Both the position numbers and the translations under genes were made by a program. Shown here one piece after another: positions 5,502-62,187 of a stretch of DNA of 64,000 bases. The stretch is from Geodermatophilus saharensis (GTDB lineage: Bacteria > Actinomycetota > Actinomycetes > Mycobacteriales > Geodermatophilaceae): contig NZ_FZOH01000001.1 in NCBI RefSeq assembly GCF_900188205.1, positions 778,359 to 842,358 of the forward strand, read 5' to 3'. The notes under the pieces were generated by a model that searched no databases, had not been told where the DNA came from, and saw nothing but the letters and a program-made list of their open reading frames with translations. Positions within the stretch are counted from its first letter, which is position 1. Each line of letters starts with the position of its first letter.

Positions 5502-5617
5502 GTGACGTGCTGGAACGGCCACCCCCCAGGGGTCCGCGCCGGGCACGTGACGTGCTGGAACGGCCACCCTCCAGGGACCCGCGCCGAGCGGAGCGAGGCG
5601 TGGGGAGGAGGGTGGCC
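5502..5617 (-). repeat. Dispersed 3' hairpin element, copy A (partly duplicated)
   Basis: Read on the minus strand, this element begins 7 bases after the rpmB stop. Outer arms GGCCACCCTCC and GGAGGGTGGCC pair perfectly (5617-5607 with 5572-5562), with an inner CCCACGCC/GGCGCGGG stem and a loop related to the TCGCACGCTC of the other copies. It is followed by the tag GTTCCAGCACGTCAC. A second, partial copy of the tag and arm lies 45 bases further on, a tandem partial duplication. Related copies: 9777-9830, 14905-14959, 47556-47630, 62025-62090. Confidence 0.75.
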
Positions 5618-5623
5618 CTTCGA

Positions 5624-5815
5624 TCAGGCGCGGACGACCTTGCCCGCGCGGATGCAGGAGGTGCAGGCGTTGATGCGGCGGCGGTTGCCGGGGGCGACCA
5701 GCGCCCGCACCGACTGGATGTTCGGGTTCCAACGGCGCGGCGTGCGGCGGTGCGAGTGCGACACCGACATACCGAAACCGGGCCCCTTGCCACAGACGTC
5801 GCACACGGCAGCCAC
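5624..5815 (-). CDS. rpmB: 50S ribosomal protein L28
   Basis: Component of the large ribosomal subunit, 63 residues, complete. It starts MAAVCDVCGKGPGFG and has the family core SHRRTPRRWNPNIQ and the ending CTSCIRAGKVVRA. Two cysteine pairs (CDVC near residue 5 and CTSC near 52) make it the zinc-binding form. Actinomycetes often carry a zinc-free paralog elsewhere under Zur control; none is in this window. The gene diverges from the FakA-like gene at 5977 across a 161-base gap, the same arrangement seen in many Gram-positive bacteria. A dispersed hairpin repeat follows its stop codon. Confidence 0.95.
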   Translation of the reverse strand: MAAVCDVCGKGPGFGMSVSHSHRRTPRRWNPNIQSVRALVAPGNRRRINACTSCIRAGKVVRA

Positions 5816-7573: not shown

Positions 7574-9772
7574 ATGGCGGTGACCCTCGACACCGACCTG
7601 TCCCGCGTGCTGGGCGCCAAGACGGCGAAGGCGATGGCCGAGTCGCTGGACCTGCGCACCGTCCGCGACCTGCTGCGCCACTACCCGCGCCGCTACGCCC
7701 GCCGCGGGGAGATGACCCGCCTCGACGACCTGCAGGTCGGCGACCGCGTCACCGTGCTCGCGCAGGTGCGCCGGGTGACCAGCCGGAAGATGCGCAACCG
7801 GCCCGGCACGCTCACCGAGGTCACCGTCGGCGACGGCGCCGGGGAGATGCAGCTGGTCTTCTTCAACCGGAGGTTCGGCACGCTCGAGGAGGGCGCCTGG
7901 GGGCTGTTCGCCGGCACCGTCGGGGAGTACCGCAGGTCCAAGCAGTTCGCCCACCCCGACTTCCACCTCATCACCGGCGACGACGACGAGGACTGGGCCC
8001 GCGCGCTCATCCCGATCTACCCGGCGAGCAAGGACGTCTCCAGCTGGGTGATCCAGAAGTCGATCCGGCTGCTGCTCGACGCCTCCGGCGGCTTCGGCTT
8101 CGTCGAGGACCCCCTGCCGGAGGACCTGCGCCGCCGCCACGGCCTGCCCAGCCTGCCCGCCGCCCTCCTCGACGTGCACCGCCCGACCACGGCCGACGAC
8201 GTCGAGCACGCCCAGGAGCGGCTCAAGTGGGACGAGGCGCTCATCCTGCAGCTGGTGCTCGCCGCCCGCCGCCGCGCGGCGGCGCTGGAGCCGGGCACCG
8301 CCCGCCCGCGCCGCCCGGGCGGGCTGCTCGACGCCGTCGACGCCGCGCTGCCGTTCGCGCTCACCGACGGCCAGCGCGCGGTGGGGGAGGAGCTGGCCGC
8401 CGAGCTCTCCCGCGACCAGCCGATGCACCGCCTGCTGCAGGGCGAGGTCGGGTCGGGCAAGACGGTGGTGGCGCTGCGGGCGATGGCGCAGGTCGTCGAC
8501 GCCGGTGGGCAGGCCGCGCTGCTGGCGCCCACCGAGGTGCTCGCCGCGCAGCACGCCCGCAGCATCGCCGCCCTGCTCGGCCCGCTGGCCCGCGCCGGCG
8601 AGCTCGACGGCGACCCCGCCGGCACGAAGGTGGTGCTGCTCACCGGCTCGCTGAAGGCCGCCGCCCGCCGGGAGGCCCGGGCCGCGGTCGCCGACGGCAG
8701 CGCCGGCATCGTCGTCGGCACCCACGCGCTGCTGCAGCAGGGCGTCGACTTCGCCGACCTCGGCCTGGTCGTCGTCGACGAGCAGCACCGGTTCGGCGTC
8801 GAGCAGCGCGACGCGCTGCGGGCCAAGGGCGACCGGCCCCCGCACGTGCTGGTCATGACCGCCACGCCGATCCCGCGCACCGTCGCCATGACCGTCTACG
8901 GCGACCTGGAGACCTCCGTGCTGCGCCAGCTGCCCAGCGGCCGCGGCGGCGTGGCCAGCTCCGTGGTGCCGGTCAGCGACAAGCCCGCCTGGCTCGACCG
9001 GGCCTGGGAGCGGCTGCGCGAGGAGGTGGCCGCCGGGCGGCAGGCCTACGTCGTCTGTCCCCGGATCGGCGACGACGACACCGGTACCGCCGACACCGAC
9101 GCACCCGAGGGGGCCGACGGCGCCCCCGACGACACCGGTGGGGGGAAGGACGACCGGCGGCCCCCGCTGGCCGTCCTCGACGTCGCCGAGGCGCTGCACG
9201 AGGGCCCGCTGGCCGGCCTGCGGCTGGCGGTGCTGCACGGCCGCATGACGCCGGAGGCGAAGGAGGCGACCATGCGGGCCTTCGCCGCCCGCGAGGTCGA
9301 CGTCCTCGTCGCCACCACCGTGGTGGAGGTCGGCGTCGACGTGCCCAACGCCACGGTCATGGTCGTCATGGACGCCGACCGCTTCGGCGTCAGCCAGCTC
9401 CACCAGCTGCGCGGCCGGGTCGCCCGCGGGAAGCACCAGGGGCTCTGCCTGCTGGTCACCGAGGTCCGCGGGTCGACGTCGACCGGGCAGCGGCTGGCCT
9501 CGGTCGCCGCCACCTCCGACGGCTTCGAGCTCGCCCGGCTCGACCTCGAGACCCGACGCGAGGGCGACGTCCTCGGCGCGGCCCAGTCCGGCCGGCGCTC
9601 CAACCTGCGGCTGCTGTCCCTGCTGGAGGACGAGGAGCTCATCGCCGCCGCCCGCGCCGAGGCCACCGACCTGCTGGCCGGCGACCGCGGGCTCGCCGAC
9701 CACCCGGGGCTGGCCGCCGAGGTGGCCGCGCTGGCCACCGACGAGCGCGCGGAGTACCTCGAGAAGGCATGA
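7574..9772 (+). CDS. recG: ATP-dependent DNA helicase RecG
   Basis: RecG remodels stalled replication forks and Holliday junctions. The 732 residues contain an N-terminal wedge/OB domain (residues about 50-160, MTRLDDLQVGDRVTVLAQV) for branched DNA, then helicase motifs: GEVGSGKTV near 292, VVVDEQHRFG near 400, TATPIPRT near 430, and motif VI in QLRGRVARGK near 610. An acidic, threonine/glycine-rich insertion at about residues 495-530 (DDDTGTADTDAPEGADG) sits between helicase lobes and is absent from enterobacterial RecG. Start: ATG at 7574, immediately after the FakA-like stop. Copy B of the dispersed hairpin begins 5 bases after the stop. Confidence 0.95.
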   Translation: MAVTLDTDLSRVLGAKTAKAMAESLDLRTVRDLLRHYPRRYARRGEMTRLDDLQVGDRVTVLAQVRRVTSRKMRNRPGTLTEVTVGDGAGEMQLVFFNRRFGTLEEGAWGLFAGTVGEYRRSKQFAHPDFHLITGDDDEDWARALIPIYPASKDVSSWVIQKSIRLLLDASGGFGFVEDPLPEDLRRRHGLPSLPAALLDVHRPTTADDVEHAQERLKWDEALILQLVLAARRRAAALEPGTARPRRPGGLLDAVDAALPFALTDGQRAVGEELAAELSRDQPMHRLLQGEVGSGKTVVALRAMAQVVDAGGQAALLAPTEVLAAQHARSIAALLGPLARAGELDGDPAGTKVVLLTGSLKAAARREARAAVADGSAGIVVGTHALLQQGVDFADLGLVVVDEQHRFGVEQRDALRAKGDRPPHVLVMTATPIPRTVAMTVYGDLETSVLRQLPSGRGGVASSVVPVSDKPAWLDRAWERLREEVAAGRQAYVVCPRIGDDDTGTADTDAPEGADGAPDDTGGGKDDRRPPLAVLDVAEALHEGPLAGLRLAVLHGRMTPEAKEATMRAFAAREVDVLVATTVVEVGVDVPNATVMVVMDADRFGVSQLHQLRGRVARGKHQGLCLLVTEVRGSTSTGQRLASVAATSDGFELARLDLETRREGDVLGAAQSGRRSNLRLLSLLEDEELIAAARAEATDLLAGDRGLADHPGLAAEVAALATDERAEYLEKA

Positions 9773-9776
9773 GCAA

Positions 9777-9830
9777 GGACCGCCTGCCCCCCACCGCTCG
9801 CACGCTCGCGGCGGGACCCTGCAGGGGGCC
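9777..9830 (+). repeat. Dispersed 3' hairpin element, copy B
   Basis: Begins 5 bases after the recG stop. Outer arms CCGCCTGC and GCAGGGGG pair with one mismatch. The inner part CCACCGC-TCGCACGCTC-GCGGCGG matches copies D and E. This copy is followed by GCCGTCGACGTCC instead of the full GTTCCAGCACG tag, so its 3' end is degenerate. rsmD begins 21 bases later, so if it terminates, rsmD needs its own promoter. Confidence 0.7.
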
Positions 9831-14904: not shown

Positions 14905-14959
14905 GGACCTCGCTGCCCCCACCACTCGCACGCTCGTGGTGGGCCCCTGCAGCGAGGCC
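14905..14959 (+). repeat. Dispersed 3' hairpin element, copy C
   Basis: Begins 6 bases after the preceding stop. Outer arms CCTCGCTGC (14908-14916) and GCAGCGAGG (14949-14957) pair perfectly. Inner arms CCACCAC and GTGGTGG also pair perfectly around the conserved loop TCGCACGCTC (14926-14935). In copy D the inner arms are CCACCGC/GCGGCGG and the outer arms CCTCCCTGC/GCAGGGAGG, so paired positions changed together. Confidence 0.75.
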
Positions 14960-45413: not shown

Positions 45414-47552
45414 ATGGCGGTGACCGACCTGCCGGTGCCGGGGACGGGGACGGGGACGGGGACGGTGCACGGCGCCTGCCCGCTGGACTGCCCGGACACC
45501 TGCGCGATGGAGGTGACGGTCGAGGACGGCCGCGCCGTGCGGGTCCGCGGTGCCCGGTCGCACCCCTACACCCGCGGCGTGCTGTGCGTGAAGATGAACG
45601 ACTACGAGCGCACGGTCTACAGCGAGGACCGGGTGCTGCACCCGCTGCGGCGGACGGGCCCGAAGGGCAGCGGGCGGTTCGAGCGGATCTCGTGGGACGA
45701 GGCGCTCGACGAGATCGCCGGGCGCTTCACCGAGATCGTCGAGACGTCCGGGGCCGAGGCGATCATGCCGGTCAGCTACCTGGGCACCCAGGGGATCCTC
45801 AACGGCCTCAACGTCGGCGACCCGTTCTTCAACCGGCTCGGCGCGACCGTCAGCGAGCGCACCTACTGCGACTCCGGCTCCTGCACCGCCTACGCCATGA
45901 CGGTGGGCGCCACCGCCGGCGTCGACCCGGAGTCCTTCGTGCACGCCCGCTGCATCGTCATCTGGGCCAACAACATGCTCAGCACCAACCTGCACCTGTG
46001 GCCGTTCGTGGCCGAGGCGCAGCGGCGCGGGGCCAAGGTCGTCGTCATCGACCCGGTGCGGCACCGGACGGCGCAGCACGCCGACTGGTACATCCCGATC
46101 CGCCCCGGCACCGACGGCGCCCTGGCGCTGGCCATGATAAATGTGATCATCGCAGAGGGGCTGACCGACGAGGACTACGTCGCGCGGTACACCGTCGGCT
46201 TCGACGAGCTCGCCGAGCGCGTGGCGACCTACACCCCCGAGTGGGCCAGCGGCGAGACCGGCATCCCCGCCGAGGACATCCGGACGCTGGCGCGCGAGTA
46301 CGCCGCGGCCGATCCCTCGGTCATCCGGATCGGGGTCGCCATCGAGCGGCACGCCGGCGGCGGGCAGACCGTGCGCGCCATCTCCTGCCTGCCCGCGCTC
46401 ACCGGGGCCTGGCGCCGCCCCGGCGGCGGTCTGCTGCAGCTGCCGCTGTGGGCCTTCCCGGTCAACTGGCCGGCGTTCCTCGGCGCGGAGTTCATCCGGC
46501 CGGGGACGCGGGTGGTCAACCAGTGGCTGCTGGGCCGGGCGCTGACCGGCGAGCTGGGGCTGGACCCGCCGATCCGGGCGCTGGTGGTCTACAACAGCAA
46601 CCCGCTGGTCGTGTGCCCCGAGCAGGACCGCATGGTCGCCGGGCTCTCCCGCGAGGACCTGTTCACCGTCGTCAGCGAGCACTTCCTCACCGACACCGCC
46701 GACTACGCCGACATCGTGCTGCCCGCCACGACCCAGCTCGAGCAGCGGGACCTCATGTTCTCCTGGGGCCACCTCTACGTGACGCTGAACGAGCCGGCCG
46801 TGGCGCCGCTGGGCGAGGCGGTGTCCAACACCGAGCTGTTCCGCCGGCTGGCCGCGCGCATGGGGTTCACCGAGCCGGTGTTCCGCCGCACCGACGAGGA
46901 GATGATCGCCGAGGCGTTCGACTGGTCCTCGCCGGTCCTGGAGGGGATCACGCCCGAGACGCTGGCCCGGGACGGCTGGGCGCGGCTGCGGCTCCCCGGC
47001 CCGGACGAGTACGCCCCGCACGCCGAGGGCGGGTTCCCCACGCCGTCGGGCAAGGTGGAGTTCCTCTCCTCGGCCGCCGCCGGCGGCAACTTCGTGCTGC
47101 CGCTGTTCCGCCAGGGCTCGAACGACCACCAGTCCGGCGAACCGGTGGACCCGCTGCCGCACTACGTCCCGCCGCGCGAGCGGCCCGACGGCCGCTACCC
47201 GCTCACGCTGCTGTCGCCCAAGTCGCACGCCTACCTCAACTCCAGCTTCGCCGACCGCCCGGGCCAGCAGCGGGTGCAGGGCGTCCCCGCCGTGCACGTG
47301 CACCCGGAGGACGCCGCGGCCCGCGGCCTGACCGACGGCGCCGAGGCCACCGTCGTCAACGACCGGGGCCGGTTCACCGCGCGGGTGCACGTCACCACCG
47401 ACGTCGCCCCCGGCGTGGTGGTCTCCCCGATGGGGGCCTGGCGCAAGCACTCGCGCGGGGCGACGGTGAACGCGCTGAGCCCCTCGGTGTTCGCCGACCT
47501 CGGCCGCGCCCCGACCTTCTCGGACAACCTCGTGGAGATCGAGCCGGCCTGA
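45414..47552 (+). CDS. Molybdopterin-dependent oxidoreductase with [4Fe-4S] site
   Basis: A 712-residue enzyme of the DMSO-reductase family with a bis-molybdopterin cofactor. The N-terminal cluster motif is CPLDCPDTC (residues about 23-31) with a fourth cysteine in GVLCVK near 61; the lysine after it is typical. ISWDEALDEIAGRF near 88 starts the molybdopterin domain, ALVVYNSNPLVV near 387 and VLPATTQLEQRD near 434 continue it, and the C-terminal barrel is seen at VNDRGRFTARV near 645. No Tat signal and no partner subunits are visible, so it is probably a cytoplasmic single-subunit enzyme; substrate unknown. A perfect AGGAGG precedes the ATG. Codons 9-16 contain a GGGGAC hexamer repeated four times. 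Confidence 0.9.
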   Translation: MAVTDLPVPGTGTGTGTVHGACPLDCPDTCAMEVTVEDGRAVRVRGARSHPYTRGVLCVKMNDYERTVYSEDRVLHPLRRTGPKGSGRFERISWDEALDEIAGRFTEIVETSGAEAIMPVSYLGTQGILNGLNVGDPFFNRLGATVSERTYCDSGSCTAYAMTVGATAGVDPESFVHARCIVIWANNMLSTNLHLWPFVAEAQRRGAKVVVIDPVRHRTAQHADWYIPIRPGTDGALALAMINVIIAEGLTDEDYVARYTVGFDELAERVATYTPEWASGETGIPAEDIRTLAREYAAADPSVIRIGVAIERHAGGGQTVRAISCLPALTGAWRRPGGGLLQLPLWAFPVNWPAFLGAEFIRPGTRVVNQWLLGRALTGELGLDPPIRALVVYNSNPLVVCPEQDRMVAGLSREDLFTVVSEHFLTDTADYADIVLPATTQLEQRDLMFSWGHLYVTLNEPAVAPLGEAVSNTELFRRLAARMGFTEPVFRRTDEEMIAEAFDWSSPVLEGITPETLARDGWARLRLPGPDEYAPHAEGGFPTPSGKVEFLSSAAAGGNFVLPLFRQGSNDHQSGEPVDPLPHYVPPRERPDGRYPLTLLSPKSHAYLNSSFADRPGQQRVQGVPAVHVHPEDAAARGLTDGAEATVVNDRGRFTARVHVTTDVAPGVVVSPMGAWRKHSRGATVNALSPSVFADLGRAPTFSDNLVEIEPA
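45439..45465 (+). repeat. Hexanucleotide tandem repeat inside the oxidoreductase gene
   Basis: Four GGGGAC-type units encode a glycine-threonine repeat just before the first cluster cysteine. The unit is a multiple of three, so slippage would change length but not frame. Confidence 0.6.
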
Positions 47553-47555
47553 CGA

Positions 47556-47630
47556 GGGACCTCCCTGCCCCCCACCGCTCGCACGCTCGCGGCGGGCCCC
47601 TGCAGGGAGGCCGTTCCAGCACGTCACCGG
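47556..47630 (+). repeat. Dispersed 3' hairpin element, copy D
   Basis: The most complete copy, starting 4 bases after the oxidoreductase stop. Outer arms CCTCCCTGC (47560-47568) and GCAGGGAGG (47602-47610) pair perfectly; inner CCACCGC/GCGGCGG pairs with one A-C mismatch around TCGCACGCTC. The tag CCGTTCCAGCACGTCACCGG follows at 47611-47630, as in copies A and E. Confidence 0.75.
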
Positions 47631-62019: not shown

Positions 62020-62024
62020 CCGAG

Positions 62025-62090
62025 GGCCCCTCGCCCCCCACCGCTCGCACGCTCGCGTCGGGGCCCTGCGAGGGGCCGTTCCAGCACCGC
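62025..62090 (+). repeat. Dispersed 3' hairpin element, copy E
   Basis: Outer arms GGCCCCTCGC (62025-62034) and GCGAGGGGCC (62068-62077) pair perfectly but differ in sequence from all other copies. The inner part CCACCGC-TCGCACGCTC-GCGTCGG is nearly that of copies B and D. The tag GTTCCAGCACCGCACC follows. Confidence 0.75.
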
Positions 62091-62187
62091 ACCACCGGCC
62101 TCGTCCCTCTCCTGGGACGGGGCCGGTGGCGCGTCCGGGCCCGGCTGGCAGGATCACCCGGAACGACGTCGAGCGAGGGATGAGCCG

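Follow-up and report, generated by a model that had tools for sequence, protein, structure and literature searches.

The closest described systems to the repeat reported here are the REPs, of which two superfamilies, GTAG and CGTC, have been described (Di Nocera et al. 2013, PMC3733652). According to the accessible part of that paper, the repeats of REP-rich genomes of other phyla lie near gene 3' ends, mostly at less than 20 bp where the genes are convergent; GTAG REPs often supply a TAG stop, and CGTC REPs are said to be without a dedicated transposase (PMC3733652). In E. coli, 446 of 4,072 predicted REPs (~11%) fall within 15 nt after a stop, and REPs this close to the stop have been reported to stall ribosomes; such stalling and mRNA protection are the effects named for REPs in the available portion of PMC12306157, which cites the primary work. 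The MIRU of Mycobacterium insert at start codons and carry a coupled ORF, as stated in the accessible text of a review (PMC12548453). REPs are widespread in bacteria, and why they gather at the 3' ends of genes is an unsettled question. A folded hairpin with bulged bases and variable stems also lies directly after the stop codon in the cassettes of integrons, where it forms the attC site with its core boxes AAC...GTT. The target site of MIRU is DTGA.

The window analysed here is a stretch of 64,000 nucleotides from the 4.9 Mb genome of Geodermatophilus saharensis. A preliminary description had reported five hairpins in it (copies A to E), each pointing the same way as the gene before it, and the letters and gene matches bear out all five, with their orientation and gene contexts. 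The host genes are rpmB (L28, minus strand) for copy A, recG for copy B, a 67-aa ORF before smc without an informative match for copy C, a molybdopterin oxidoreductase gene for copy D (assigned from scores below each model's cut-off) and tsf for copy E. The GGACC or GGGCC of the stem starts 5, 4, 5, 4 and 4 nt after the stop in copies A to E; the placement just behind the stop is therefore as first described, but the measured range is 4-5 nt and not 4-8. The loop TCGCACGCTC is common to copies B to E and differs in copy A (TCGCTCCGCTC), and the 3' tag GTTCCAGCAC is present after copies A (twice), D and E. The features of the window are as follows.

5507..5550, minus strand: extra 3' half-unit of copy A, with a second tag
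5562..5618, minus strand: core hairpin of copy A, 5 nt after the rpmB stop (covariance model 71.6 bits)
5624..5626, minus strand: stop codon of rpmB (L28)
9770..9772, plus strand: stop codon of recG, which in copy-less relatives overlaps or closely adjoins the rsmD start
9777..9830, plus strand: core hairpin of copy B, in the gap between recG and rsmD (64.1 bits)
14905..14959, plus strand: core hairpin of copy C, in the gap between the 67-aa ORF and smc (70.8 bits)
47550..47552, plus strand: stop codon of the molybdopterin oxidoreductase gene
47557..47612, plus strand: core hairpin of copy D (81.8 bits)
47613..47630, plus strand: 3' tag of copy D, GTTCCAGCACGTCACCGG, whose TTC pairs with the head before GGACC in predicted folds
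62024..62077, plus strand: core hairpin of copy E, lying after the tsf stop and before a native terminator-like hairpin (59.9 bits)
62078..62090, plus strand: 3' tag of copy E
62092..62129, plus strand: native terminator-like hairpin 3' of tsf, also found in copy-less relatives (limits set by eye)

The family consists of two-stem hairpins of 54-58 nt. In the consensus, the stop is followed by 2-3 nt, AAGGACC, a variable arm, CC, CCCAC-NNN and the loop CTCGC-NN-GCTCG; the 3' half holds the matching arms with GGCGGG and NCCCTG, and then GGCC. The outer stem is variable and covarying and has a bulged A, the inner stem contains an A.C mismatch, and the internal loop between them is asymmetric (CC/NCCCT). 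A GTTCC tail follows 61 of the 284 copies with a readable end, and in two predicted folds its TTC pairs with the head before GGACC. Among 14 aligned copies, which were picked for similar length and are not a random set, 97.2% of cells were paired and 9 of 18 pairs changed on both sides. The values for pairing and for two-sided change were reached by none of 500 shuffles and that for further pair types by 10 of 500, while slid alignments dropped to 44-53% paired. Tandem growth was seen as ~45-nt 3' half-units, at 5507-5550 of the window and at C11:370185-370275, and as whole units of 66 nt (L123) and 84 nt (L152). Other palindromes recur in the same genomes. The short palindrome CACTTCCGCGGAAGTGCAC, or one close to it, is found after genes at C10:118041, C10:345400, C11:101713 and C11:292906 of the window's genome; the palindromic motif GATCAGGTCACCTGATC, or one close to it, recurs among the matches listed in intergenic stretches of relatives, in the region of G002 54905 and in the G002 and G006 sequences aligned to G005 79462.

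A 21-nt core, with up to 3 mismatches allowed, matched the genome 124 times (61 forward and 63 reverse) and its reversed-pattern control matched the same genome 4 times (3 and 1), so the five-copy repeat is not a product of chance. A profile made from the five copies found 53 places in 864 kb, none of which overlaps a called gene by more than 10 nt. A covariance model built from 14 copies gave 54 matches at E<=1 in 864 kb; for a representative sample this extrapolates to ~306 per genome, and the 57 copies with a head in 1.0 Mb of the window's genome lead to ~278. The repeat was present in 26 of 26 genomes of the genus and in 8 of the family's 11 other genera sampled, and none of 24 genomes from other families of the order carried a copy. 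Five of the 11 genera gave between 0 and 21 copies; the search scored at most ~93 candidates per genome, which makes the copy counts lower bounds. In 295 other genomes of the class (19 candidates scored in each) there was one match, with E 5e-5, which is without the AAGGACC head and looks like chance. Among the matches listed, an exact 29-nt core occurs in named contigs of Blastococcus, Geodermatophilus, Modestobacter and Trujillonella, and one record lies outside the names of the family (UNVERIFIED_ORG Bacillus). Spread on plasmids or phages was considered and rejected, copy D having no match there at E 1e-3. With Rfam 15 at the gathering score, the entire window gave 0 matches.

Tabulated by distance and orientation, 50 of 57 copies in the 1.0 Mb sample of the window's genome start 0-10 nt after a same-strand stop, and for 31 of the 50 the distance is exactly 4 nt. 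Slots 0-10 nt after a stop make up 3.35% of oriented intergenic positions; scatter without regard to stops is refuted. A wider set of 288 copies was drawn from this genome, from stretches in seven relatives and from 117 named loci (312 merged matches less 24 without a recognisable head; 2 copies counted twice), and 203 of these lie within 10 nt after a same-strand stop, 123 of them at exactly 4 nt. At the 117 family loci, which were chosen by the core alone (80 of them among the matches listed), 103 of 124 copies share the strand of their nearest upstream gene and 83 of the 124 are no more than 7 nt after a same-strand stop. Five of the 288 copies lie inside a called gene, genes having been called by codon score, by which some short genes, genes cut by a locus end and true starts (rsmD) are missed. 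The other 85 of the 288 are not within 10 nt after a same-strand stop. Of these, 48 have a stop of the opposite strand facing them within 60 nt, at no constant distance (1-57 nt), and the remaining 37 show neither arrangement; 16 of the 37 lie 11-100 nt after a stop, 6 of them behind another copy. Orientation and stop phase are real, though not absolute.

Two simple accounts of this placement were rejected. A single TGA DNA target for all copies does not fit the 85 copies that are not behind a same-strand stop, which show no preference for TGA at -7 to -5. Nor does the element supply its own stop as a rule, since copy-less orthologues usually end at the same codon position; at ilvN, among the matches listed, a stop is formed with the head (TAAGGACC) in G002, G008 and G036. 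A T at -5 from the stem was seen in 34 of these 85 copies and in 37 of the 203 behind a same-strand stop, an excess that may reflect a target preference differing from TGA.

The hairpin had been described as fixed behind its stops, and this did not hold. Between close species, whose gene 3' ends are a median 97% identical, 54 ordered comparisons of orthologous stops gave 33 with no copy (no profile match at E 0.01), 15 with a different copy (opposite orientation included) and 6 alike, most pairs being counted from both sides; for another 23 the stretch contained no orthologue. The relative thus has no copy or a different one in 48 of 54 comparisons. Whether a given stop has a copy, and with what sequence, varies much more among close species than the gene ends do. 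The stops themselves pre-exist in copy-less relatives, and the copies lie behind them mostly in the sense orientation.

For 18 of 97 copies (21 pairs) a relative aligns with a gap of 53-110 nt. At 16 of these the counterpart has no element sequence at the gap (60-110 nt), and at two, G006:13229 and G036:79044, it retains some. The cleanest gap is at rpmB, where G006 and G002 differ by 64 nt between 30-nt flanks that are 97 and 100% identical, and no target duplication was seen there by eye. Judged by eye, a copy or copy complex lies 3' of recG in 9 of 25 genus genomes, where several subtypes are represented; in the remaining 16, rsmD follows closely, its codons overlapping those of recG in 10 and a short gap separating the two genes in 6. 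The recG of G002 has a copy and that of the window's genome (92% protein identity) has one, while G005 and G006 (recG DNA 95-96% identical, values near 0.5 from opposite-orientation loci left out) have none. In single species pairs such as these, gain and precise loss are indistinguishable. The 3' side of tsf, inspected by eye in 24 genus genomes, was copy-less with a native terminator-like hairpin in 11, and carried a forward copy in 6 (2 of them degenerate) and a reversed copy in 7. A longer reversed relative with an added ATCGGCCCCG segment was found after tsf in L258, L259, L263, L265, L267 and L270; it is perhaps a composite or a second family.

Taken together, we consider it likely that the family represents small, non-autonomous, REP/MITE-like palindromic mobile elements of Geodermatophilaceae that home behind stop codons. 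We read the hairpins as mobile elements and not as a fixed control signal because copies come and go quickly between related species. In two pairs of copies from the sample of the window's genome, the first 50 nt are the same except for one position and the host genes are different, and at C10:109164-109290 (L036) one hairpin is nested inside the inner part of another, both halves of which are kept. A putative enzyme would move the element in trans, acting on the folded single strand and preferring sites just 3' of a stop-like triplet, and insertions within genes would be purged by selection. Once placed, a copy would be transcribed as a 3' UTR hairpin that, by analogy with the REPs of E. coli, probably shields mRNA 3' ends or slows terminating ribosomes. 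It could substitute for the native terminator between convergent genes and would be mostly tolerated, not required.

The search for such an enzyme covered the families PF01797 and PF00078. Y1_Tnp (PF01797) had no match in the 19 genus genomes searched and was found in 2 of 12 other genomes of the order, so that a RAYT-driven REP was not supported for the genus. Retro-mobility through a resident reverse transcriptase was rejected, for PF00078 gave no match in the window's genome and was missing from 12 of the 25 other genus genomes, all of which bear the repeat. A scan of 1.0 Mb showed no larger, autonomous element sharing these ends; the places with a tag alone or a head alone looked by eye like deletion stumps, tandem half-units and chance matches. 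These negative results count against the mobile-element reading, as do the 85 of 288 copies not within 10 nt after a same-strand stop. In addition, at some sites (ilvC, tsf) the copy seems to stand in place of the former spacer and not to have been inserted into it, which ectopic gene conversion could also produce, and exact phasing to a stop codon has no established mechanism.

A different account of the phase, which we hold to be unlikely, is an undescribed mobility system that targets the translation stop site itself and sets its copies at a fixed distance behind functional stop codons. The element would then possibly enter by way of mRNA or of the ribosome at termination, or because the stop triplet is recognised in single-stranded DNA, and it would do so without a Y1 transposase and, as far as this genome is concerned, without a reverse transcriptase.

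Also improbable is that the copies are 3'-UTR hairpins of old, vertical descent whose sequences are changed by ectopic gene conversion or by template switching within the palindrome, with frequent deletion and little true transposition. Template switching in a palindrome can mimic compensatory stem change without selection at the RNA level, and would make the stems found here look compensatory in the same way. Nearly identical genes with the same stop and the same left border can have different hairpins (ilvN of G036 and G008, among the matches listed) and stumps with a deleted centre exist, as rewriting would predict. Rewriting does not account, however, for empty sites whose flanks are intact at abutting or overlapping genes (recG-rsmD), for one copy nested within another, or for the lack of any copy in the 24 genomes from the order's other families.

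The preliminary description had favored a terminator or mRNA 3'-end module that is copied around the genome. Copying, in a preferred place and direction, is supported by near-identical copies at unrelated stops and by pairs of occupied and empty sites in relatives; the terminator is supported only in part. That a functional terminator or 3'-end module is maintained by selection would agree with the sense orientation, the preferred distance behind the stop and the covarying stems, yet TTTT occurs within 20 nt after none of 288 copies and 5 or more T in 12 nt after 2 of 288. A co-directional gene follows 27 of 50 copies in the window's genome, some of which fill most of the gap (recG-rsmD, smc) and so occupy tight co-directional junctions, and at tsf copy E precedes a native terminator-like hairpin. 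In addition, just 50 of 953 genes of this genome carry a copy, and mostly the copy is not conserved at the same gene between close species.

Some observations at convergent gene ends favor termination. The copies are in weak excess there (23 of 50, against 177 of 527 genes with a gap of at least 20; Fisher p 0.09). Ten of the 23 convergent cases leave a spacer of less than 30 nt, which suggests that the copy may end transcripts there, and 10 of the other 13 have a further hairpin; in comparison, 145 of 167 convergent genes without a copy have a hairpin of their own. The copy may be the only hairpin at some of these ends. Hairpins of -20 kcal/mol or below were found after the copy in 82% of 44 cases, compared to 91% of 157 copy-less convergent genes and 57% of 360 random 80-mers, so native hairpins often still follow copies, at a rate not far above background. 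The median hairpin was weaker after a copy (-24.1, n=44) than after copy-less convergent genes (-30.4, n=157), as if the copy had partly replaced it. We regard selection for a terminator or 3'-end module as decidedly unlikely. For annotators, such hairpins are not to be read as conserved terminators.

It is very improbable that the hairpin, 4 nt behind the stop, is kept because it stalls terminating ribosomes and lowers the output of the upstream gene: its base would lie inside the footprint of the terminating ribosome and, in the part of PMC12306157 at hand, ribosome stalling is reported for E. coli REPs that follow a stop within 15 nt, but tsf and rpmB, from which a high output is expected, are among the hosts, host genes are slightly more codon-adapted (median 0.396 vs 0.377 per codon, p 0.008) and turnover is fast.

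How, then, do the mobile elements favored here compare with those already described? Integron attC sites differ in that the host genes named here are core genes and not cassettes, and AAC...GTT boxes were not seen in the consensus. With an intrinsic terminator the family shares a G+C-rich hairpin 3' of a gene; unlike a terminator, it has no T-tract, a sequence common to its copies, a presence that varies by species and, often, a co-directional gene behind it. MIRU resemble it as short, apparently mobile actinobacterial repeats at junctions where start and stop overlap, as at recG-rsmD, but the present hairpin goes with stop codons, whether the gap is tight or open (MIRU as given in the accessible text of PMC12548453). 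An ATGA-type coupled junction occurs at recG-rsmD; most copies in the window's genome lie in longer gaps or between convergent genes.

The search of the open-access literature, with subscription journals mostly outside its scope, found no description of the repeat. By word search in the accessible text of two papers on the family, the sole mention of repeats in the Geodermatophilus obscurus genome paper (PMC3035280) is "CRISPR repeats 0", and palindromic repeats appear in PMC9686282 solely as CRISPR; the main text of PMC3733652 contains none of the words Geodermatophilus, Blastococcus, Modestobacter and Actinobacteria. The preliminary description knew no name for the hairpin. Its kind does have one, that of REP-like palindromes near gene 3' ends, going by the available part of PMC3733652, while the family itself stands outside the two named superfamilies.

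The family shares with REPs a short palindromic form, a high copy number, an extragenic location (124 core matches; 0 of 53 profile matches and, in the wider set, 5 of 288 copies in called genes) and closeness to gene 3' ends (50 of 57 copies in the window's genome). It differs in having two stacked stems, a length of 54-58 nt as opposed to 20-40, a sharp mode at 4 nt and, as a rule, no GTAG or CGTC at the stem base. Within 8 nt before the stem GTAG was found in 11 and CGTC in 4 of 288 copies; within 20 nt after it CGTC was found in 74 and GTAG in 5, and the one in copy D is within the tag, not at the stem base. A further difference from GTAG REPs is that no RAYT/Y1 transposase was found in 19 genus genomes. 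The family is REP-like in its working, yet it is outside the GTAG and CGTC superfamilies, being larger and without their tag. The contrast with E. coli is in placement: ~11% of REPs there lie within 15 nt after a stop, according to the part of PMC12306157 at hand, and 50 of 57 copies here lie within 10 nt. The placement is thus of REP type but sharp, with one preferred distance, one main orientation and an estimated few hundred copies. Combined with fast turnover beside gene ends that are ~97% alike and with no REP transposase in the genus genomes searched, it makes the choice of target separable from selection, and these features point to an unidentified enzyme.
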